This document shows positions 1 through 8,687 of a DNA stretch of 8,687 nt, in pieces. The translations under genes were made by a program, and so were the position numbers. The stretch's first letter is position 1, and each line of letters starts with the position of its first letter. Source of the DNA: Actinomycetes bacterium (GTDB taxonomy: Bacteria > Actinomycetota > Acidimicrobiia > Acidimicrobiales > SZUA-35); the NCBI GenBank assembly GCA_024227975.1, contig JAAETV010000123.1:1-8687 (forward strand), written 5' to 3'. The notes beneath the pieces are model-generated. The model ran no database searches and was not told the DNA's origin. It saw only the letters and a program-made list of their open reading frames with translations.

Positions 1-88
1 CAGCATCGTCGTCGCTGTCGCTACCGCAAGCGGCAGCTATCAACGCAAACGCGAACAGCAGGCTCAATAATTTGGTCAGTTTGCTCAT
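1..88 (-). CDS. Solute-binding lipoprotein, probably of the Liv ABC transporter (5' end only)
   Basis: Only the first 29 codons are in the window; the rest continues past base 1. They encode a lipoprotein signal peptide: a short basic start (MSKLTK), a hydrophobic stretch (residues 7–19), and I-A-A-A-C with the acceptor cysteine at residue 21. A G-S-D-S-D-D-D linker follows, typical of secreted actinobacterial binding proteins. A strong Shine-Dalgarno (AGGAG, minus strand, 99–103) sits 10 bases before the ATG at 88. As the last gene after livG-livF-livH-livM, it most likely encodes the extracytoplasmic receptor that delivers substrate to that permease, held to the membrane by lipid. The ligand-binding domain is not visible, so the LivK-type assignment rests on position and the lipobox. 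The 123-base gap from livM leaves room for separate regulation of this component. Confidence 0.75.
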   Translation of the reverse strand, partial: MSKLTKLLSLLFAFALIAAACGSDSDDDA

Positions 89-98
89 TGGTTGGTTT

Positions 99-180
99 CT
101 CCTCTCGCCAAGCCCGTCAAAAGTCGGACCTAGATCATTCATAACTAGATGGTGCCGCACGATGCCTGGGGGTAGGCACC
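99..180 (-). promoter_or_regulatory. livM–binding-protein spacer: hairpins and ribosome binding site
   Basis: The spacer between livM and the lipoprotein gene contains two overlapping, mutually exclusive inverted repeats. One is GGTGCC (151–156) with GGCACC (175–180). The other is TGCCT (163–167) with AGGCA (174–178) around a 6-base loop. Further towards the lipoprotein start, CTAGAT occurs twice (130–135 and 145–150) around an AT-rich patch that reads TATGAAT on the minus strand and could be a weak -10 box. No matching -35 is seen. The Shine-Dalgarno AGGAG is at 99–103. In Liv-type operons an intercistronic hairpin can protect upstream mRNA or change the ratio of binding protein to permease; that role here is inferred. 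Confidence 0.4.
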
Positions 181-211
181 TACGAACGTTGGAAAGCGGA
201 ACTGCTAAAAC

Positions 212-1351
212 TCACACTGCCGGTTCGGGAACCGCTTCTTCCCCTTCTCCCCCGGCTGGATCCACACTCGAAGACTCCAGCGCCACTCCGACCGGGGGTT
301 GTGGCACCACCTGGATGATAAGCGCCTTCACCTTCTTCGTGAGACCTATGACGCCACCGGGGCTGAAGAACGTAACCAAAATCAAGATCAGCCCGAACAA
401 CGACTGAGACAAGATGTCGAGCCCAAGATTCTTGGTGAACTCACCGACAAACACGACAACCAAGGCACCAACGAGACCGCCTTCGAGAGTGGCGACACCA
501 CCGACTACCAGGCCGACCAGTAGGGGGATGGCCAGCGGAGCGAAGCCGAAGTCCTGCTCACCGACGAAGGCTGACTGCATCACCCACATCACTCCCGCCA
601 AGCCGCCGAGGGCGGCGCTGACGCCAAAGGTGAGAGTCTTGTAGAGGGGCAGGTTGATGCCGCTCACGGCAGCCCCGGTCTCGTTGTCGCGGATGGCGAC
701 GATGGCTCGGCCCGGCCGGCTCTTCAGCAGATTCCTGGTACCGATCCAGGCCAGCATGGCCAGCGCGGCGATGATGTAGTACTTGTAGATAGCTTGCTGC
801 TGGGGAGTGTCGTCGATCCGGATGATCGATCGGACCCACGACGGAGCCACTAGCTTCTCATCGATGTTGCGACCGTTCACCCCTCCGGTTCGGTCGGCAA
901 TCCCCCATTTGTCGAGCTTCATCAATGTGGGGAACACCGCAGCGAAGGCGATCGTCAACAGGGCCAAGTAGAGGCCCTTGATCCGCAGCGCCGGCACCCC
1001 GAGTAGAACACCGACGGCGAAGGCCGCGATCATGGCGGCCGGGATCGTCATCCAGTAGTCCCACCCATGATCCATTATCAGGGTCGTTGTCAGGAAGGCC
1101 CCGGTACCCATGAACGCGCTCTGAGCCAGGGCGATCAAGCCCGAGTAGCCAACGACCAGGTTGAGGCCGAGTATGGCTACGCCGAGGTAGATGGCCCGGT
1201 TCATACGCCCAACCTGGAACTCACCGAACACTGCGGTGAGGATGTGGGGCAGCAACAATGCGAACACTAGGAACAATCCCCAAGTCACAACCAGGTAGGT
1301 GCGGTGCTGGGAAGACCCCTGCTTGAAGGTGAACATGGCCCCGCGGTTCAT
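212..1351 (-). CDS. livM: Branched-chain amino acid ABC transporter permease LivM
   Basis: This is one of the two membrane subunits of a HAAT-family importer; it pairs with LivH to form the channel. The 379-residue protein has multiple hydrophobic helices and the LivM landmarks. These include N-L-V-V-G-Y-S-G-L near residues 64–72 followed by L-A-Q-S-A-F-M-G-T-G-A-F, and A-L-R-I-K-G-L-Y-L-A-L-L-T-I-A-F (121–136). The cytoplasmic coupling loop is S-R-P-G-R-A-I-V-A-I-R-D-N-E (211–224), then G-V-A-T-L-E-G (285–291), and the family ending is F-S-P-G-G-V-I-G-L (329–337). A roughly 40-residue tail, acidic and Pro-rich at its end, follows. I chose the ATG at 1351 because GAGAGG (1361–1366) lies 9 bases upstream. 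The reading frame is open back to 1441, but that start would overlap the end of livH and lacks a good ribosome site. It lies 31 bases after livH, in the same operon. Confidence 0.93.
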   Translation of the reverse strand: MNRGAMFTFKQGSSQHRTYLVVTWGLFLVFALLLPHILTAVFGEFQVGRMNRAIYLGVAILGLNLVVGYSGLIALAQSAFMGTGAFLTTTLIMDHGWDYWMTIPAAMIAAFAVGVLLGVPALRIKGLYLALLTIAFAAVFPTLMKLDKWGIADRTGGVNGRNIDEKLVAPSWVRSIIRIDDTPQQQAIYKYYIIAALAMLAWIGTRNLLKSRPGRAIVAIRDNETGAAVSGINLPLYKTLTFGVSAALGGLAGVMWVMQSAFVGEQDFGFAPLAIPLLVGLVVGGVATLEGGLVGALVVVFVGEFTKNLGLDILSQSLFGLILILVTFFSPGGVIGLTKKVKALIIQVVPQPPVGVALESSSVDPAGGEGEEAVPEPAV

Positions 1352-1382
1352 ATGCGTTGTCCTCTCACGAAAGTCGACTGCA

Positions 1383-2342
1383 TCACACTCGCTCCACTCG
1401 GGCCGTGCCAAAGAGGCCAGCAGGCCGGAACCAGAGAACAATCAGGATCACCACGAAGGCGACAGCCAGGCTCAAAATGATGAACGCTGGGTCATAGTCG
1501 CCCAGGTAGCCGACCAGCAGGCTCTGGATGAGCCCGATGGCGATACCACCGACAACGGCGCCAGGCAGGGAGTCGAGGCCCCCGATGGTGGCAGCGGCGA
1601 AGGAGAAGATGAGCAGGGTCGCCATCATGTTCGGCTGGATGAACAGCTTTGGTGCCACCAGGGAGCCACCCAGGGTGCCGAAAGCGGCAGCCAGGGCCCA
1701 CCCGAACATCAGGGTGCGGCCAACACGGACACCAACCAGACGGGCTGACTCGGTGTTCGACGATACGGCTCTGAAGGCCAGACCGACCTTGGTCCTGATC
1801 AACAGGAACCACAGGACAACGAACATCAGACCCAACACGGCCCAAGTTCCTACGACCGTGTAGCGGAGGCGAGCACCTCCTATGCCGATGAAGTCATCAG
1901 ATCCGTTGGGGAACAGGCTGGGAAAGGCCCGAGGGTTGAAGTTCCACAGGTAGCCAGCGACCGAGTTCAGGATCAGGAATAGCCCAAACGTGATCAGCAC
2001 TACCGGTAAGTGGTCGGTTGGATCGAATGGGCGTATCAACACCCGCTCGATCGCCGCCCCCGCCCCGGCGCTGATGGCCATGGCCACCAGGATGGCCAGT
2101 ATCAGTCCCAGCGGGATGCCACCAGGTCGGAAGTCATTCCAACCAAGGGTGTAGCTGAGAAGCGAGTCCTCTTGAGGGGCCGCTATCACATAGGCGATGA
2201 ACGTCCCGAACATTGCCAGCTCACCCTGAGCGAAGTTGATCAGCGTGGTGGCCTTGAAGATCAGGACTAGGGCGACGGCGACGACGGCGTAGACCGCACC
2301 GTTGTCCAGACCGTCAAAGAGTCTTTGGAGGAAGAGTTGCAC
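1383..2342 (-). CDS. livH: Branched-chain amino acid ABC transporter permease LivH
   Basis: This is the second membrane subunit of the HAAT importer, 319 residues. It opens with the characteristic G-L-D-N-G-A-V-Y-A-V-V-A-V-A-L-V-L-I-F (11–29) and I-N-F-A-Q-G-E-L-A-M-F-G (35–46), the equivalent of the INFAHGEL motif of LivH. The cytoplasmic loop that contacts the ATPases is T-K-V-G-L-A-F-R-A-V-S-S-N-T-E-S-A-R-L-V-G (184–204). G-G-L-D-S-L-P-G-A-V-V-G-G (254–266) and the terminal R-P-A-G-L-F-G (306–312) are also family hallmarks. The start codon is GTG (2340–2342), supported by an AAAGGGG Shine-Dalgarno about 10 bases upstream (around 2353–2360). It follows livF by 50 bases and precedes livM by 31, so it is almost certainly co-transcribed. 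The substrate could be leucine/isoleucine/valine or another small acid or amide, since this family is broad. Confidence 0.95.
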   Translation of the reverse strand: MQLFLQRLFDGLDNGAVYAVVAVALVLIFKATTLINFAQGELAMFGTFIAYVIAAPQEDSLLSYTLGWNDFRPGGIPLGLILAILVAMAISAGAGAAIERVLIRPFDPTDHLPVVLITFGLFLILNSVAGYLWNFNPRAFPSLFPNGSDDFIGIGGARLRYTVVGTWAVLGLMFVVLWFLLIRTKVGLAFRAVSSNTESARLVGVRVGRTLMFGWALAAAFGTLGGSLVAPKLFIQPNMMATLLIFSFAAATIGGLDSLPGAVVGGIAIGLIQSLLVGYLGDYDPAFIILSLAVAFVVILIVLWFRPAGLFGTARVERV

Positions 2343-2392
2343 GTTGGGCGAACCCCTTTCACTTTCTACCGAACGTTGTGGACATGACGGTG

Positions 2393-3148
2393 CTATGCAC
2401 CGAGGTAGGCGTCTTGGACAGCGCTGTCGTTCTGCAATGCTTCGGCCGTCCCGTCGAGCACGATCTGACCGGCTTCAAGTACATATCCGTAGCTAGCCAG
2501 TTCGAGCGCCAGGTTGGCGTTCTGCTCGACGATGAGCATGGTCACGCCAGATTCCTCGTTTAGCTCTTTGAAGGTGTTGAACAGATCTTCGATGATCAGT
2601 GGCGCCAGGCCGAGTGACGGCTCGTCGAGCAGCATCAGCCGTGGCCGGGACATCAGGGCTCGGCCCACAGCCAGCATCTGCTGCTCACCACCACTCAGCG
2701 ACCCAGCGAGCTGGTCCTTGCGCTCCTTCAGTCGAGGGAACATCTGGAACCAGCGATCCAAGTCATCGCGGAGATTGTCTGTGCGGGTGTAGCCCCCGAT
2801 CTCCATATTGTCCTGGACCGACAGTTCGGGGAACGTGCCCCGCCCCTGAGGAACGTGGGCCAGGCCCATATGAACGATCTTGGCGGTATCGGCCTTACTG
2901 ATATCCACGCCATCGAATACGATTGACCCGGTCGAGGACACCATGTTGCACACTGCACGCAGGGTGGTGGTCTTGCCGGCGCCGTTGGCCCCCAGGATGA
3001 CCGAAACCTCGCCTTCGGGTACCTCGAAGTCGATCCCCCGCAAGACCTGAACTTGCCCGTACCGGGCGGTGACGTTCTCGGCCTTCAACATGATGCCCTT
3101 GGGGGCTGAAGACCCGTTCGTGTTGTCTTGGCTCGTATCTTCGCTCAT
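2393..3148 (-). CDS. livF: Branched-chain amino acid ABC transporter ATPase LivF
   Basis: This is one of the two cytoplasmic ATPases that power the LivHM permease. Motifs in the 251-residue product are: Walker A G-A-N-G-A-G-K-T (53–60), Q-loop Gln101 in H-V-P-Q-G-R, the ABC signature L-S-G-G-E (151–155), and Walker B L-M-L-L-D-E-P (171–177). The switch segment is I-V-E-Q-N-A, with Gln209 in place of His, which is normal for LivF. The ATG at 3148 overlaps the livG stop as ATGA, indicating translational coupling, and GGGAG lies about 11 bases upstream. This start adds a polar N-terminal tail (Ser/Asn/Asp-rich, residues 2–17) that most LivF proteins lack. An alternative ATG at 3091 (residue 20), preceded closely by AAGGG, would give a more typical 232-residue protein. 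Confidence 0.95.
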   Translation of the reverse strand: MSEDTSQDNTNGSSAPKGIMLKAENVTARYGQVQVLRGIDFEVPEGEVSVILGANGAGKTTTLRAVCNMVSSTGSIVFDGVDISKADTAKIVHMGLAHVPQGRGTFPELSVQDNMEIGGYTRTDNLRDDLDRWFQMFPRLKERKDQLAGSLSGGEQQMLAVGRALMSRPRLMLLDEPSLGLAPLIIEDLFNTFKELNEESGVTMLIVEQNANLALELASYGYVLEAGQIVLDGTAEALQNDSAVQDAYLGA

Positions 3149-3915
3149 TGCGACATGCTCCCACTCCCGAGGTAGGCCTCGATCACCGACGGATCCTCTC
3201 GCACGGCGTCCGGAGCCCCCTCGGCAATCTTTTTACCGAAGTTCAGCACGACGACGTTCTCGGAGATGCCCATCACCATCCTCATGTGGTGCTCAACCAG
3301 CAAGATGGTGAGGTTGTGGTCATCGCGGAGTTGGCGAACGGTCTCCCCGAGCGAATCGACTTCACTATGGGTGAGGCCGGATGCTGGCTCGTCGAGCATG
3401 ATCAACCTCGGGTTCCCAATCAGGGCCCGGGCCAGCTCGATTCGCTTGAGCGTCCCGAAGGGCAGCCCAGCGGCTGGATGGAAGGCATGCTCCTCGAGGC
3501 CAAGCTCTTCGAGAGCCCGCCAAGCCTTGAGTTTCGACTGGCGCTCCTCACCACTGGTCCCGAGCCGTAGCATCGAGGTGATGAAGTTGGCCTTGGTGCT
3601 GGTGTGGTCGCCGACCATCACATTCTCCAGCACTGTCATCCCTGGCCAGAGGGCCAGGTTCTGGAAGGTGCGGTAAACACCTTTCTGGGAGATGACGTGT
3701 GGAGCGAGGCTCAACAAATCGAGGTCGTCGAAGGTCACCGTTCCTTCGGTTGGGTCGTAGATACGGCTCACGACGTTGAAAAGGGTCGTCTTCCCGGCTC
3801 CGTTGGGTCCGATCAACGCGCAGATCTGGCCTTCTTCGATACCGAATGAAAGTCGATCCAGCGCGGTGATACCGCCAAACTTCACCGTGATGTCAGAGAC
3901 ATCGAGCAGAGACAC
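3145..3915 (-). CDS. livG: Branched-chain amino acid ABC transporter ATPase LivG
   Basis: This is the first gene of the transporter operon and the second ATPase of the pair. With the start chosen here it is 256 residues, the usual LivG length. Motifs: Walker A G-P-N-G-A-G-K-T (36–43), Q-loop Gln85 in Y-R-T-F-Q-N-L, signature L-P-F-G-T-L-K-R (151–158), a LivG-style variant of LSGGQ. Walker B is L-I-M-L-D-E-P (171–177) with Glu176 as catalytic base, followed by L-L-V-E-H-H with switch His209. The insertion between Q-loop and signature (about 100–150) is typical of LivG. I prefer the GTG at 3913–3915 because GGGGGAGG (3924–3931) lies 8 bases upstream. The ATG at 3960 would add 15 residues (MLQNPDPW…) absent from the family and has no ribosome site. 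Its stop overlaps the livF start by four bases. Confidence 0.94.
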   Translation of the reverse strand: MSLLDVSDITVKFGGITALDRLSFGIEEGQICALIGPNGAGKTTLFNVVSRIYDPTEGTVTFDDLDLLSLAPHVISQKGVYRTFQNLALWPGMTVLENVMVGDHTSTKANFITSMLRLGTSGEERQSKLKAWRALEELGLEEHAFHPAAGLPFGTLKRIELARALIGNPRLIMLDEPASGLTHSEVDSLGETVRQLRDDHNLTILLVEHHMRMVMGISENVVVLNFGKKIAEGAPDAVREDPSVIEAYLGSGSMSQ

Positions 3916-3923
3916 GTACTGTT

Positions 3924-3931
3924 CCTCCCCC
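3924..3931 (-). promoter_or_regulatory. Ribosome binding site that fixes the livG start
   Basis: On the minus strand this reads GGGGGAGG, containing a near-perfect anti-Shine-Dalgarno match, and lies 8 bases upstream of a GTG codon (3915). No comparable site precedes the in-frame ATG at 3960. This favours GTG as the true livG initiator. Confidence 0.75.
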
Positions 3932-4019
3932 TGCGTCCATGGGTCTGGGTTCTGTAGCATCCGGACGGTAGAGGGGAACGGTAGGCCACGTCAAAGTGAA
4001 CTGCCCCACAGCCGCACGG

Positions 4020-4042
4020 CGTCCCCCCAACCTGGGGAGACG
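4020..4042. repeat. Imperfect inverted repeat in the livG leader
   Basis: CGTC (4020–4023) pairs with GACG (4039–4042), and CCCCA (4025–4029) pairs with TGGGG (4033–4037). There is one mismatch at 4024/4038 and a 3-base loop. Further pairing is possible outside (4017–4018 with 4044–4045, around a mismatch). It lies about 105 bases upstream of the livG start, in the presumed transcribed leader, and could be an RNA hairpin or a protein site. No U-tract follows on either strand, so a simple intrinsic terminator is unlikely. Confidence 0.35.
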
Positions 4043-4070
4043 GCGTAGCCATTGTCACACCTCCGCCCCT

Positions 4071-4082
4071 GACAGGAGTGTC
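4071..4082. promoter_or_regulatory. Short palindrome and AAACG repeats, possible operator
   Basis: GACA-GGAG-TGTC is a dyad with 4-base arms and a 4-base centre. On the plus strand it is directly followed by three CGTTT motifs (within 4082–4097), which read as AAACG on the strand of the liv operon. The cluster sits between the candidate promoter box and livG. Short dyads next to repeated motifs are compatible with a regulator site, but arms this short can arise by chance. Confidence 0.25.
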
Positions 4083-4185
4083 GTTTACGTTTCGTTTCAG
4101 CGTCAGCGAAGTGGCGAGATGAAGACGGATTCGCCTTCGCGTCGACCGCCTGCCCCGGAAGCCAAGCGAGGGCGGACATGAGCTA

Positions 4186-4195
4186 CTTATATATA
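4186..4195 (-). promoter_or_regulatory. Candidate -10 box upstream of livG
   Basis: The minus strand reads TATATATAAG, a ten-base AT-rich island in otherwise GC-rich DNA. TATATA and TATAAG both resemble the sigma-70 -10 element. No clear TTGACA-like -35 lies at the expected distance upstream, so it would be a -10-dominated promoter, as is common in actinobacteria. It points towards livG, about 270 bases away. Confidence 0.35.
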
Positions 4196-4223
4196 GTGAC
4201 CGGGCGTCTAGGAGGAGGCCGAC

Positions 4224-4238
4224 CCTGCGGATTGCAGG
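4224..4238 (-). terminator. Weak hairpin after the VOC gene
   Basis: CCTGC (4224–4228) and GCAGG (4234–4238) form a 5-bp stem with a 5-base loop, starting 7 bases past the VOC stop codon. There is no U-tract. Position fits a terminator for the minus-strand VOC gene, but the stem is short. Confidence 0.25.
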
Positions 4239-4244
4239 ACGGCG

Positions 4245-5021
4245 CTAGCGAAGGTTCACCCTCAACCCGGCGACCATGACCTGATCGTCGGTGACGTAGC
4301 AGTCGCGAGACCGAGCCCCAGCCAGGATGGCGTCGCGGTCATTGGCGATCACGTCGATGCCTCCCAACCCCTCGCCCCGACCGTCGACCTCCTCAACGAA
4401 GCGGACCACGGCGTTGTCCAGCTCGATCTGGGGGTTGCCGTCATCGTCGCTCGACAGATCGATCTCGGCCATGGCAGACCAGCGAGCGGCCAGGGCATCA
4501 GCATCGGGGCTCTGGAGCTCGGCGGCCGAAATGCCGCCGACGATGTCGGTGCGGACGTAGGGCTGCCAGTTCTTGCCCGCTGGAACCCAGGGGCCCCCGT
4601 CAGTGTCGCCCCCCTCCATCGTCATCTGGTCCATCTCGAAGAAACTGCCACCGGTGTCGCCTGGGTGGAGCTGGATCCCATCATGGCCCTGTTCGGGGTG
4701 GTTGAGATCCCAGGCAATCCGGATGTCGAGCTCGGCCGCTCGTTGCCGACGACGGGCAACATCATCGACCTGGGTGATCACCATGTAGCCACCATCACCC
4801 CCCCGACGCTGTATGTAGCGTCCCCCGGCGGTGTCGGCTTCGATCGGGGTGACGACCTCCAGGAATTGGGTTCCGATGGGCCACAGGGTGTTCTTCAGAC
4901 CGAAGGTCTTGACTCCTGGATCAGTGAAGCAGGCTTCGGCCCCGAGCACGGTTCCGATGTCCAAAGCTGATTTCCGGAGATCCTCAGTCACAACAGCGAT
5001 TTGACGAAGACGTATCCACAT
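4245..5021 (-). CDS. VOC-family (glyoxalase-fold) protein
   Basis: The predicted 258-residue cytoplasmic protein has the paired beta-alpha-beta-beta-beta modules of the vicinal oxygen chelate superfamily. The first module starts I-R-L-R-Q-I-A-V-V-T-E-D-L (3–15), with Gln7 where metal-binding His/Gln is usual, and ends Q-F-L-E-V-V-T-P (52–59, Glu55). The second contains G-G-Y-M-V-I-T-Q-V-D-D (77–87) and Q-L-H-P-G-D-T-G-G-S-F-F-E (117–129), resembling the HP..TGG..E stretch of methylmalonyl-CoA epimerases, with Glu129 a plausible metal ligand. The C-terminal third (about 155–258) looks like a further, degenerate module. The family includes epimerases, dioxygenases and lyases; the reaction cannot be fixed here. 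ATG at 5021 is chosen because AGGA lies 8 bases upstream and the VOC fold begins at once. The ATG at 5063 would add 14 unrelated residues. It diverges from the oxidoreductase gene across 96 bases. Confidence 0.85.
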   Translation of the reverse strand: MWIRLRQIAVVTEDLRKSALDIGTVLGAEACFTDPGVKTFGLKNTLWPIGTQFLEVVTPIEADTAGGRYIQRRGGDGGYMVITQVDDVARRRQRAAELDIRIAWDLNHPEQGHDGIQLHPGDTGGSFFEMDQMTMEGGDTDGGPWVPAGKNWQPYVRTDIVGGISAAELQSPDADALAARWSAMAEIDLSSDDDGNPQIELDNAVVRFVEEVDGRGEGLGGIDVIANDRDAILAGARSRDCYVTDDQVMVAGLRVNLR

Positions 5022-5117
5022 ACCCCTGATCCTGTCACACCACTCTTTCCGGTGCTCAGGCAACGAACAGGCCCGACTACGGTCAACCCGTCAATCCACA
5101 TCGATCGAGAGGACTCC
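5022..5117. promoter_or_regulatory. Divergent promoter region between VOC and oxidoreductase genes
   Basis: This 96-base gap must hold signals for both divergent genes. On the minus strand there are two TTGAC hexamers in tandem, TTGACG (5089–5094) and TTGACC (5081–5086), spaced 8 bases apart. They resemble -35 elements for the VOC gene, although no strong -10 follows. Towards the oxidoreductase, TACGGT (5078–5083) fits a TANNNT -10 without a clear -35. The two GTCAA repeats could instead be a regulator site. Ribosome sites: AGGA before the VOC ATG, and GAGAGGA (5107–5113), only 4 bases before the oxidoreductase ATG. Confidence 0.4.
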
Positions 5118-6107
5118 ATGGACAAGATCGGCTTCATTGGCCTCGGCAACGTCGGAGCGAAGCTTGCGGGATCGCTGGCGCGAAACGGGGTCGAGCTCAC
5201 CGTTCGCGATCTGGACCGCGCCGCGGCCGCTGCGCTCCTTGCTCAGGGCGCAACCTGGGGAACCAGCCCTCGCCAGATGGCCGAGGACTGTGATGTCGTC
5301 ATCACCTGCTTGCCCAATCCTGCGGCCTGCTCAGAGGTCATGGAAGCAGAGGACGGGCTGTTGGCCGGATTCGGGCCCGGATCGATCTGGGCTGAGATGA
5401 GCACCACCGACGAGACCGAGGTGCAGCGTCTCGGTCGCCTCGTTGATGAGCGCGGTGGGCACCCCGCTGACTGCCCCGTGTCCGGCGGTTGCCACCGAGC
5501 CACCACCGGCAATATCGCTATCTTCGCTGGCTGTGAACGCTCGGTCTTCGAGCGGCTCCTTCCCCTGCTCACCATCATGGGCCGCCAGATCCTCCACACC
5601 GGCGACCTCGGCTCGGCTTCTGTGCTGAAGGTGGTCACCAACTATTTGGCAACGGCCAACCTGATCACGCTGGGCGAAGCCCTCGTCACCGCCAAAGCAG
5701 CCGGGCTCGACCTGAACACAGCCTACGAGGCGATCAGGATCTCGTCTGGTAATTCCTTCGTCCACGAGACCGAGAGCCAGGTCATCCTCAACGGGAGCAG
5801 GGACATCAACTTCACTATGGACCTGGTGGTGAAGGACCTGTCGTTGTTTGCCGCCCTCGGCCAGCGGGCCGGCGTCCCCCTCGAGGTCTCCCCTATCCTC
5901 CTCGACGTCTTCCTCGATGCCCTAGACCGCTATGGCCCTCGGGCCTGGTCGCCGAATGTGATCAAGAGGCTCGAGGAAGCAACCGGACTGAAGATCCTGG
6001 CCCCCGGTTTCCCAGCCGAGCTGATCGACGACGAGCCGGAACGAGTAGGGGCAGAAGTGATCCCTTTTGTTCCCGACCGGCCGGCAGCAGATCCTCACGA
6101 CCAATAG
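5118..6107 (+). CDS. NAD(P)-dependent oxidoreductase, 3-hydroxyisobutyrate dehydrogenase family
   Basis: This soluble beta-hydroxyacid dehydrogenase has 329 residues. The N-terminal Rossmann fold begins at once with I-G-F-I-G-L-G-N-V-G (4–13, GxGxxG), and Asp31 after the second strand is in the region that sets cofactor preference. D-C-P-V-S-G-G (118–124) is the substrate-binding motif, G-S-A-S-V-L-K-V-V-T-N (165–175) supplies catalytic Lys171 and Asn175, and V-V-K-D-L (237–241) is the conserved Lys-Asp pair of the helical C-terminal domain. Members oxidise 3-hydroxyisobutyrate (valine breakdown), reduce tartronate semialdehyde, or act on other short hydroxy acids. Substrate is not decidable from sequence alone. 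ATG at 5118 follows GAGAGGA; the frame is open back to 5001 but that overlaps the VOC gene and precedes the fold. A tail of about 35 residues, rich in Pro/Asp/Glu, extends beyond the usual family end. Confidence 0.92.
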   Translation: MDKIGFIGLGNVGAKLAGSLARNGVELTVRDLDRAAAAALLAQGATWGTSPRQMAEDCDVVITCLPNPAACSEVMEAEDGLLAGFGPGSIWAEMSTTDETEVQRLGRLVDERGGHPADCPVSGGCHRATTGNIAIFAGCERSVFERLLPLLTIMGRQILHTGDLGSASVLKVVTNYLATANLITLGEALVTAKAAGLDLNTAYEAIRISSGNSFVHETESQVILNGSRDINFTMDLVVKDLSLFAALGQRAGVPLEVSPILLDVFLDALDRYGPRAWSPNVIKRLEEATGLKILAPGFPAELIDDEPERVGAEVIPFVPDRPAADPHDQ

Positions 6108-6153
6108 TCGACTGCCTTTGAGGCCCCGAAGACGCCTCCAACGAGTCCGATCA

Positions 6154-6180
6154 GGGGGATGGGCTCAGAGCCCATCCCCC
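6154..6180. terminator. Perfect inverted repeat, probable bidirectional terminator
   Basis: GGGGGATGGGCTC (6154–6166) and GAGCCCATCCCCC (6168–6180) are exact reverse complements around a single central A. As RNA this gives a 12-bp GC-rich stem with a 3-base loop on either strand. It lies 46 bases after the plus-strand oxidoreductase stop and 7 bases beyond the minus-strand OmpA-Bmp gene stop, so it separates two convergent genes. There is no U-tract, as is frequent for terminators in GC-rich bacteria. Confidence 0.75.
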
Positions 6181-6187
6181 CTAGTCG

Positions 6188-8671
6188 TCACGCACCATTG
6201 GGGACGACGATCGCTCCGCTGACAATGCCAGCGATGAGCTGATCCGCTCGTTGGCGGACGCCTTCGGAGAGGGCATATGAGGGGTTGAACTCAACGACGA
6301 GTCCTCCGTTTGCCAAGTTGGCACTGGAGCTCTTGCCCTGCACTGCTCCAGCGTCGATGTCGACAATGATGGGCCGCAAGATCACTTCCCAGTGATAGAC
6401 CTGCGAGGCGACAACCAGCGTCGGGGCCAACGATGCCTGATTGGACTGGGTCCCGAACCAGAGTGCCCCGTTCTCGCTGGCGATCGAGACGGCTCCGACC
6501 ACCATCTGGGCCGAGCCCGTCATCACATCCGCTCCAGCACCGACATGAGCCTGGGCTGCCTCTGCCGCCAGCGTCAGGTCGGAGAACGAACCGGTGTAGG
6601 TCACCTGAACATCGACCCCTGACGCCTCGGCTCGGGCTCCGGCCTGGAAGCCGTTCACATAGAGCTCGGCATCGCCGACCTCTATCGGTCCCACCACACC
6701 GATGACTCCAGAGCTGCTCAGCAGGCCAGCCATCCCACCCATGACATAGCCCCCCTCCTGGGAGGCAGCATCGTAGGCGTAGACATTGGGTAGCCCGAAG
6801 GTGTCGCTGGCAGTACCCCAGGCAAAAGCGACGTCCGGGAACTCCGGAGCGATTTCCAGCAAGGCTCCCCCGAACTGCGAACCGTGGGCAATCACTAGGT
6901 CATAGTCCTGGGCCGCATAGTCGCGAATGGCGGCTGCGGCTTCGTCGGGCACGAATGTGTTGTCGGTGATCGAGACCTCGACATTGCCCCGCTCGGCGGC
7001 AATGATGTTGACCGCGTCAACCATGCTCTGGGTGAAGGCAAGGTCGTTGCGAGCGCTCGGGGCGACGATGGCGATTCGAAGAAAGGCGTCGCTGCGGACC
7101 AGCGGAGAACCGACGGGGGCAATCACTTCAAACTCAACCCGTCGTTCCAGGCTGGCCAACGCTTCCGACCCTGAGGAGGTCTCCTCCCCTCGCGGCTCGA
7201 CTTCAAGCGCAGAGTCGGAAACACCGTGACCTACCAGATAGTCCTTGACGGCCTGGGCTCGGGCCCGACTGAGCTGTCGGTTGCTGTCATCAGGTCCACT
7301 GTCATCGGTGAATCCAACGATGGTGACGGGCAGATCGGGGTAGGCCACCATGATCGAGGCCACGGTGTTCAAGATCCTGATATGTAGCTCACTGAGCTTG
7401 GTCTCGCCGACGTCGAAGATGATCGGAGTTGTAGCAATGACCCGATCGAGCTCAGCCTGGAACGCGGCCGCTCGATCCCCTGCCCCCTGGCCAGTAGGGG
7501 GAACCGCAGCCGAGCCTTCGGTGACAGCTAGAGCCGATTGGTCGACCGGCTGGTCGCCGGCCAGGGCTCGGGCCGCACCGAGGGCCGTCTCTCGCTGGGC
7601 CTCCGAAGGGACCGTTCCTGACAGGTAGATAGTGCCATCACGGTCTTCGACACCGATGTTGTCGAAGCCGAGCCCTCGGAGCACAGCAACGATCTCATCG
7701 ACCCTCGTGTCGACGGCCGGGCCAGCAACCGCGGTCGTGTCACTGGCCAGCTCACTAGCCACCGTGCTCGGCTCCGAGCTGCGTCCAAACGGCATAGTCA
7801 GGGCCAGGTAGGCCACACCGATGACAGCCAAGACGACCCCGACCATTGCCGCCAGCCGGCGGGGCGGCACCTGGGATGGCGCCAACGCCGGTCCGGTCGC
7901 GCCTCGTCGACCAGCAGCAGCGGAGGGCGCCGCTGGCCGAGCAGAGCGGGCCGCAGCAGATGGAGGCATGGGCTGGCGATGACCCAAGGTGTGATCGTTG
8001 TCCCCTACCGGTCGCTCCCGGCCGACCTCGTGTTGATAGGTATGGTCGAATTGGCTGACCTGCCGACGTGGTGCGTCGTAGTAGGCGCCGGTTTCGAAAC
8101 TGATCTGATCCTCGAATCCGTCTTGGACCAGATCCTGCTCACGGCCATAGAGCTGCTCCCCACCCTTGTCATGATCGTTGGGAAGGCCTTGGGGCGGTTC
8201 GAACTGATCGAAACGGCCCAGTCGATCGACATGATCGGACTGGACACGCGGCAGCGGATGGGTGGACCGATCGGGCTGTGCCGGTTGGACAGGCACGTTC
8301 GCCGCCTGGGGCTGAACCGCAAGATCTCGTTCCGGGAGTTGGGCACGATCGAGGAAGGGCGGAGGGGCCAGACTTGGGTCGTGGGGTGGCCTCGGTTCAC
8401 GCTCAGCCAATGGGGCTCGCTCCAGCTGAGGAGCGGCCACGGACTGGGAAGCCGTCGACTCCACACGATCCGAGTCGTCACTATCAGACGGGTTGAGGTG
8501 GTGCACGGGAGCCAGCGGCGGCTCTTGGGCCACGGTTCGACTTGTCGCGACTGGATCGACGAGCTCTACCCGGTATTCGAGCTTGTTCACCTGGGAGATC
8601 TGAAGTCCGAGGGCCTCGCTCAGCCTGACGATGGATGCCCGGTTCTCACTGAAGTGAGAGAGCAGCGCCAT
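6188..8671 (-). CDS. Membrane-anchored BON–OmpA–Bmp fusion protein (peptidoglycan-binding plus solute-binding)
   Basis: This 827-residue mosaic has several regions. Residues 1–270 are polar, rich in Pro/Gln/Asp/Arg and probably disordered and cytoplasmic. One transmembrane helix spans about 273–293 after a basic R-R. A BON-like domain (320–385) follows. Next is an OmpA C-terminal domain (401–517) with G-F-T-D-D (453–457) and N-R-Q-L-S-R-A-R-A (464–472); Asp456 and Arg471 have the 15-residue spacing of the peptidoglycan (diaminopimelate) binding pair. The end is a Bmp/PnrA-type type-1 periplasmic binding domain (530–827) with N-D-L-A-F-T-Q-S (542–549), D-L-V-I-A-H-G-S-Q-F (591–600), Q-E-G-G-Y-V-M-G-G-M-A (638–648), G-V-I-G-V-V-G (655–661) and N-G-F-Q-A-G-A (673–679). 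TM–BON–OmpA matches mycobacterial ArfA (Rv0899); the binding domain is extra and lacks its own lipobox. The frame stays open from the ATG at 8671 to the window end with only a weak GGA ribosome site, so the true start may lie outside. Confidence 0.85.
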   Translation of the reverse strand: MALLSHFSENRASIVRLSEALGLQISQVNKLEYRVELVDPVATSRTVAQEPPLAPVHHLNPSDSDDSDRVESTASQSVAAPQLERAPLAEREPRPPHDPSLAPPPFLDRAQLPERDLAVQPQAANVPVQPAQPDRSTHPLPRVQSDHVDRLGRFDQFEPPQGLPNDHDKGGEQLYGREQDLVQDGFEDQISFETGAYYDAPRRQVSQFDHTYQHEVGRERPVGDNDHTLGHRQPMPPSAAARSARPAAPSAAAGRRGATGPALAPSQVPPRRLAAMVGVVLAVIGVAYLALTMPFGRSSEPSTVASELASDTTAVAGPAVDTRVDEIVAVLRGLGFDNIGVEDRDGTIYLSGTVPSEAQRETALGAARALAGDQPVDQSALAVTEGSAAVPPTGQGAGDRAAAFQAELDRVIATTPIIFDVGETKLSELHIRILNTVASIMVAYPDLPVTIVGFTDDSGPDDSNRQLSRARAQAVKDYLVGHGVSDSALEVEPRGEETSSGSEALASLERRVEFEVIAPVGSPLVRSDAFLRIAIVAPSARNDLAFTQSMVDAVNIIAAERGNVEVSITDNTFVPDEAAAAIRDYAAQDYDLVIAHGSQFGGALLEIAPEFPDVAFAWGTASDTFGLPNVYAYDAASQEGGYVMGGMAGLLSSSGVIGVVGPIEVGDAELYVNGFQAGARAEASGVDVQVTYTGSFSDLTLAAEAAQAHVGAGADVMTGSAQMVVGAVSIASENGALWFGTQSNQASLAPTLVVASQVYHWEVILRPIIVDIDAGAVQGKSSSANLANGGLVVEFNPSYALSEGVRQRADQLIAGIVSGAIVVPNGA

Positions 8672-8687
8672 CCGCGTTTCCGGATCC

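Follow-up and report, generated by a model that had tools for sequence, protein, structure and literature searches.

The window, the whole 8,687-nucleotide stretch analyzed here (contig JAAETV010000123.1, positions 1 to 8,687, from an Actinomycetes bacterium), carries on its minus strand an open reading frame (ORF) of 827 amino acids (8671..6188), which stays open up to base 8686, at the window edge. The encoded protein joins a transmembrane (TM) helix, a BON domain, an OmpA-type domain and a Bmp/PnrA-like solute-binding domain, and we regard this TM-BON-OmpA-Bmp order in one protein as virtually certain. A reading of the same DNA from its letters only (the sequence-only reading) had recognized the fusion and placed it at 6188..7800; that span covers the TM helix through the Bmp domain but misses the cytoplasmic half, a hairpin and a linker, since the ORF extends to 8671. 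The features of the gene are as follows.

6203..7081, minus strand: Bmp/PnrA-like type-1 solute-binding domain, residues 531 to 823 (Pfam, model, structure matches)
7121..7489, minus strand: OmpA-type domain with its leading helix, residues 395 to 517, motif GFTD..N..LS..RA retained (Pfam PF00691, motif, Foldseek)
7532..7708, minus strand: BON domain, residues 322 to 380 (Pfam PF04972; AlphaFold2 (AF2) predicted local distance difference test (pLDDT) of 86 to 93 over residues 321 to 380)
7799..7855, minus strand: single transmembrane helix, core residues 273 to 291, N terminus inside by charge (hydropathy, flanking charge, AF2 helix 270 to 292)
7868..8539, minus strand: cytoplasmic linker, predicted to be disordered, with abundant Pro, Ala, Arg, Gln and Asp (composition, AF2 pLDDT of about 30 to 40)
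8594..8686, minus strand: conserved N-terminal segment, the second half of a helical hairpin whose first half lies beyond the window (alignment with relatives)

All three domains score above their Pfam cut-offs in the 827-residue ORF: BON (PF04972, residues 322 to 380) with 35.2 bits against 27, OmpA (PF00691, residues 419 to 498) with 57 bits against 27.2, and Bmp (PF02608, residues 531 to 823) with 121.7 bits (E 3.9e-35) against 24.1. The OmpA match ends at profile position 83 of 98, and the domain is probably complete because the sequence continues through LERRVEFEV (residues 508 to 516), which we take to be the usual end of an OmpA domain; the Bmp domain begins about a dozen residues later. 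The TM helix (about residues 273 to 291) has a net charge of +4 on the preceding flank and −2 on the following one, which predicts an N-in/C-out protein. The TM helix is internal to the chain and the protein contains no cysteine, so the lipobox of an ATP-binding cassette (ABC) importer's solute-binding lipoprotein is missing, as the sequence-only reading had said. Its assignment of residues 530 to 827 to the type-1 periplasmic binding fold is borne out by a model of the Bmp domain (pLDDT 94), which has that two-lobed fold and matches the structures of guanosine-bound Lbp, PnrA and guanine-bound AtzT. Foldseek matches of the OmpA part are the C domain of Rv0899, Pal and OprF. The AF2 model of the whole protein is weak overall (pLDDT 61), so no orientation of the domains is claimed.

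The fusion recurs in related genomes. A set of 168 proteins was assembled from the window's protein, the best 120 of 635 matches, 40 loci, and L051 to L055, L067 and L068; 34 of them contain both OmpA and Bmp, in the same order in every case, counting the window's protein and its near copies (P0002, a 99% copy, and P0047 and L001). An assembly join of two genes, the artifact that the sequence-only reading had considered, is ruled out by this shared order in 34 proteins, on separate contigs and in ten genomes. The window's BON region is matched by phmmer in all 34 fusions; Pfam is sparing with the name, giving it to 3 of the 26 non-window fusions from the listed matches and, at E 1e-5, to none of 4 fusions. 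The Asp and Arg of the OmpA motif, presumably the peptidoglycan-binding residues, are retained in 34/34. Attachment to both membrane and wall, as the sequence-only reading expected, is backed by the single TM helix on the one side and by the motif on the other, from which binding to the wall in the cell would be expected.

The fusion turned up in 3 of 296 sampled genomes of the class of G001, 2 of 298 of the order of G003, 6 of 39 of the family of G001 and 4 of 50 of the family of G222; these samples overlap, and in the class and order samples each genome had at most three candidates scored. The fusion genomes number ten in all (G001, G002, G003, G222, G258, G472, G528, G547, G558 and G560), with G558 and G560 called from query OmpA-Bmp matches in frames of 872 and 953 amino acids rather than from whole-protein domain scans. 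Named records that carry the fusion are labeled Acidimicrobiia (L001), Acidimicrobiaceae (L002), Acidimicrobiales (L003, P0049, P0052) and Actinomycetia (P0002). Sources that give such proteins a name use either BMP family ABC transporter substrate-binding protein or else basic membrane protein A, which may be wrong in function. Among the literature matches listed (open-licence PMC text), no title or abstract describes a TM-BON-OmpA-Bmp fusion, and its combination of domains, spread, occurrence in genomes in which no cognate importer was found and pocket variants were not met there.

The N-terminal half extends past the window. The relative P0003, 62% identical to the window's protein, has 46 extra residues ahead of the first codon of the window's frame, while the start of other relatives lies about nine residues downstream of that of P0003; because relatives extend further in this way, the true start of the gene lies outside the window. 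In P0003 the conserved hairpin spans residues 1 to 95. The hairpin segment is matched in 29 of the 34 fusions. The other five are P0007, P0064 and P0089, which are short and start at or near the TM helix, and the diverged L051 and L052, the latter with a weak match in a separate genome search. When six genomes were searched with the hairpin, five gave matches at E ≤0.006, confined to fusion frames. Four N-terminal sequences scanned against Pfam gave no family above cut-off, and hence none of the known cytoplasmic output domains by which a transmembrane sensor would be recognized; every part of the protein except the hairpin belongs to a known family. In the window's protein, Pro, Ala, Arg, Gln and Asp abound in residues 45 to 268, a stretch predicted to be disordered (composition, AF2), and the start of the TM helix ranges among relatives from about residue 58 to 529. 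Exactly one TM segment is present in 33 of the 34 fusions, P0089 beginning downstream of it, and in all 33 the flank before the helix is more positive than the flank after it, although the net charge of that preceding flank is zero or −1 in several.

Free Bmp relatives sit beside importer genes, and the fusions do not. We compared 36 free loci (L004 to L039) with 14 fusion loci (13 and the window). Within 3.5 kb, 35 of the 36 free loci have an ATPase with two nucleotide-binding domains (double-NBD ATPase) that is at least 55% identical to the L014 reference, and 34/36 have a second permease (L025 at only 30% identity). The 14 fusion loci contain none of the importer permeases and none of the searched purine genes, and their ATPase matches are at 30% only, in L105 and the window. 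The window, which ends at 8687, has no cognate permease and double-NBD ATPase adjoining the fusion, in agreement with the sequence-only reading; its ABC genes (212 to 3960) are LivM/H/F/G-like and about 2.2 kb from the fusion gene, and the interval contains a dehydrogenase gene in the opposite orientation and a glyoxalase-like gene that falls slightly short of its Pfam cut-off. No binding-protein gene for this LivM/LivH/LivF/LivG-like importer was seen among the window ORFs looked at. A blastp comparison of the ORFs of the window, the L110 locus and the 13 other fusion loci revealed no shared operon partners of the fusion: the single ORF group present in more than two of these loci consists of generic ABC genes, in four loci, and the only window neighbors matched in fusion loci are LivM, LivF and LivG, at 24 to 37% identity.

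At the scale of genomes the picture is mixed. Six of the ten fusion genomes (G001, G002, G003, G222, G258 and G547) contain a cognate ATPase (63 to 70% identity), permease (61 to 72%) and free protein, and the free Bmp gene of G547 (G547:C39:72462-73475) carries an in-frame TAG in its matched stretch. In the other four the searches found no cognate ATPase. For G472 and G528 the closest ATPase match has 50 to 52% identity and the closest permease match 37 to 39%; for G558 and G560, where the searches covered the ATPase and Bmp proteins, the closest ATPase match has 45 to 47% identity and no second Bmp match was found at E 1e-90. G528 contains four fusions, one of which (L107) seems by eye to lack the BON domain and the hairpin, but none of the free proteins of this group, and G472 contains one diverged orphan lipoprotein-like protein (L110). 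Within the family of G001, the ATPase occurs in 21 of 39 genomes, namely 4/6 with a fusion and 17/33 without, which is no association (Fisher p 0.67).

The binding pocket was compared with that of AtzT, for which PMC6834077 gives guanine contacts by the side chains of Asn218, Asn220, Glu165 and Ser97 and the backbone of Phe98, stacking by Tyr45 and Trp194, and Asn169 and Thr139 behind. Out of 20 numbering offsets, only 5 matches all nine letters. The nine positions map to F546, G597, S598, G641, D667, Y671, F696, S720 and Q722 of the window's protein. Of the 40 fusion domains, the window's among them, 33 carry this exact string; the pocket is changed at 598, 720 and 722 in five (four FGV[GA]DYFTE, one FSTGDYFTE), and Y671F occurs in two, one of them also with S720T. 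Among free domains, 195/207 fit FGSGD[YF]F[ST]Q. Relative to AtzT, the aromatics that stack and the acidic residue are conserved in kind and the remaining letters differ, so that a ligand class is supported but not an exact base. The Asp and Lys of guanosine-bound Lbp and BmpA, which we take to bind ribose, align to Q742 and Y759, and this replacement favors a base over a nucleoside.

The ligand is probably a purine-type base, since the fusion shares its pocket with free relatives encoded in importer operons, some of which lie beside purine-catabolism-type genes; the sugar or wall fragment suggested by the sequence-only reading is accordingly less likely. At least one such gene was found by tblastn (E 1e-20) in 17/36 free loci, with references drawn from the free loci themselves, of which 8-oxoguanine deaminase and YqeC score above their NCBIfam cut-offs and xanthine dehydrogenase (XDH), XdhB, SsnA and YgfK below. 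XDH is matched at 54% identity or more in nine loci (L008, L010, L023, L029, L030, L031, L033, L034 and L037); matches of 32 to 36% in L004, L006, L013, L019 and L026 may be other molybdoenzymes.

Conservation over the rest of the domain is high. The 208 free domains have 105 positions that are conserved in 95% of them, and at least 90% of the 34 fusions retain 82 of these. Four departures stand out against 18 free relatives, mostly of actinobacterial label: position 575 is Pro in 34/40 fusions and Val or Ile in 18/18 of those relatives, V699 is kept in 4/40 versus 18/18, A700 in 6/40 versus 15/18, and G729 in 2/40 versus 14/18. Three of the four are near pocket positions in the sequence, which suggests that the departed positions may lie at the cleft rim. 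K669 is lost in 33/40 fusions. The loss of K669-L670-D673 had been considered as proof of a lost permease contact and was weakened by 6 of the same 18 free relatives that are also without K669, so that V575, V699, A700 and G729 appear to be the cleaner departures.

A tree of 73 Bmp rows, 30 of them labeled as fusions, needs two label changes, the second owed to L053, a contig-edge piece not labeled a fusion but read as a fusion fragment because it starts inside an OmpA end. If the root is on the AtzT side (here it is a midpoint on a very long AtzT branch), the fusions cluster inside the free relatives. Support is 100/100 for the main fusion group and 95/94 for all fusions together with two tandem proteins. 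The Bmp domain was most likely captured once from importer-type relatives, the simplest reading on this tree because hairpin, BON region and OmpA are common to the fusions; two separate captures may have occurred, as the fork uniting L067 and L068 with the other fusions is weak (81/35). Tandem architecture is frequent outside the fusions: 99 of the 134 non-fusion proteins of the set carry two Bmp domains (e.g., P0008, P0065, L030, L031), the copies within one protein being 76 to 100% identical and exactly identical in 20/99, which suggests repeated duplication or gene conversion.

Our best explanation, which we hold tentatively and at slightly under an even chance, is a purine-type receptor that is anchored to the wall, derives its binding domain from an importer, and acts as a sensor or scaffold rather than as an importer part. 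The cytoplasmic hairpin and long flexible linker would lead into the one membrane helix; outside, BON and OmpA would fix the protein to peptidoglycan and present the Bmp domain at the far end. That domain would have come, most likely once, from the lipoprotein that binds solute for a purine-type ABC importer, would have retained its pocket, and would catch a purine-type base outside the cell, such as xanthine, guanine or a breakdown product. Capture of the ligand may then alter the availability of the hairpin to a cytoplasmic partner, through clustering or recruitment, with no handover to a permease. For the more general claim of sensing or scaffolding rather than import, we lean modestly in favor. 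The sequence-only reading had likewise suggested a sensor; the ATPase not found in 4/10 fusion genomes, the lack of association with that ATPase in the family of G001 and the kinase and nSTAND parallels described below strengthen the case for one, and the signal itself is conjectural. A broader form, in which the fusions make up a wall-held set of heterocycle sensors, a captured purine-type domain with its own hairpin multiplied with altered pockets, and thus an undescribed receptor class, is possible but should be taken as a more speculative extension.

Several points weigh against the receptor explanation. With a linker of about 220 residues, a direct mechanical or conformational signal is improbable, and because of that doubt recruitment or clustering is the likelier output; neither the neighbors in the fusion loci nor the hairpin, by Pfam, points to an output partner. 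The 82/105 retained sites would likewise fit a domain whose docking to a permease persists, and the loss of K669 is shared with one-third of the 18 free relatives of mostly actinobacterial label. The apparent absence of the importer may reflect sequence missing from the genomes. As to the ligand, the polar pocket letters are unlike those of AtzT, 19/36 free loci contain no purine gene in the stretch searched (several stretches being short), the sole purine gene of L013 is a 32% XDH match and possibly another molybdoenzyme, and the gene references come from these same loci, that for XDH from L029.

The alternative that survives best is an accessory wall-tethered binder that traps purines in the wall and hands them to the genome's purine-type or other Bmp-type importer; we consider it unlikely, though a serious competitor. 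It draws on the pocket shared with free relatives and the 82/105 retained sites, on the cognate ATPase, permease and free protein in 6/10 fusion genomes (with the TAG in the free gene of G547), and on the other Bmp proteins and other double-NBD ATPases in the remaining four. It fits poorly with four fusion genomes without the cognate ATPase, one of them with four fusion copies, with permeases in 0/14 fusion loci and ATPase matches of only 30% in two, and with the substitution of V575, V699, A700 and G729 in most fusions; anchoring in the wall would moreover limit docking at the membrane. An envelope-structural protein of the Rv0899/ArfA kind, with Bmp as a ligand reservoir or adhesive module and no signaling, is improbable: the BON-OmpA part is similar to Rv0899 and fusion genomes have further OmpA proteins to which DUF937 or CHRD has been added, but the nine pocket positions are identical to the window's in 33/40 fusion domains and the hairpin is conserved, which argues for selection on both ends of the protein. 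A different ligand (wall fragment, modified nucleoside or B6-type heterocycle), through which the protein would report wall or nutrient state, is the least probable, since same-pocket free relatives lie in part beside XDH-, SsnA-, YgfK- and 8-oxoguanine-deaminase-type genes, against which stand riboflavin bound in the Bmp relative 4iil, the binding of guanine and 2-hydroxyatrazine by AtzT (PMC6834077), the altered letters at 598, 720 and 722 in 5/40 fusion domains, and a weak match to NF047927, a putative B6 transporter protein of NCBIfam, at 76.6 bits, far under the cut-off of 400.

The receptor explanation is best placed by comparison with known systems. The Bmp/PnrA solute-binding proteins (AtzT, 6pi5; Lbp, 7x0r; PnrA, 2fqw; BmpD, 6shu) have the same PF02608 domain and fold as the window's protein, and AtzT, like it, has two aromatics and an acidic residue at the guanine-site positions; the window's protein differs in having no lipobox or cysteine, in lying outside an importer operon and in carrying Bmp behind TM-BON-OmpA. 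The free Bmp lipoproteins of L004 to L039, from Actinomycetota and Chloroflexota records, share the pocket and 51 to 69% identity in the best Bmp segment; unlike the fusion, they mostly have a lipobox-like motif near the start, some have two Bmp domains, and they belong to permease-ATPase operons.

Rv0899/ArfA (OmpATb) of Mycobacterium tuberculosis has a TM helix and terminates with its OmpA domain. The window's protein matches it in sequence and fold, with a single TM helix, then BON, then OmpA, but OmpA does not end the protein: Bmp (531 to 823) comes after it, and the hairpin and linker are added in front. Other OmpA proteins of these organisms, with OmpA C-terminal, are L060 (G003; DUF937 and BON), L057 (G003; CHRD) and L066 (G004; BON).

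Also comparable in domain use are three proteins of G558 and G560 with Bmp near the C-terminal end: L120 is a Pkinase protein, and L121 and L122 are BTAD-nSTAND1 regulators.

L120:1127-5020, plus strand: Pkinase-Bmp
L121:1254-4904, plus strand: BTAD-nSTAND1-Bmp
L122:2920-6216, minus strand: BTAD-nSTAND1-Bmp, start cut off

Like the fusion, these have Bmp after one TM helix (by eye) and a cytoplasmic part; unlike it, they have known output domains inside, and OmpA and BON were not found in them at E 1e-5. By analogy, Bmp domains likely serve as the outer parts of regulators in fusion-bearing organisms. In the fusion, a binding domain of importer type would have become a receptor anchored to the wall, for which a likely ligand class can be named and which has natural variants of the pocket and a cytoplasmic segment that is conserved; it makes peptidoglycan-held binding proteins for purine sensing a testable idea, for which the kinase and nSTAND Bmp proteins are parallel cases.

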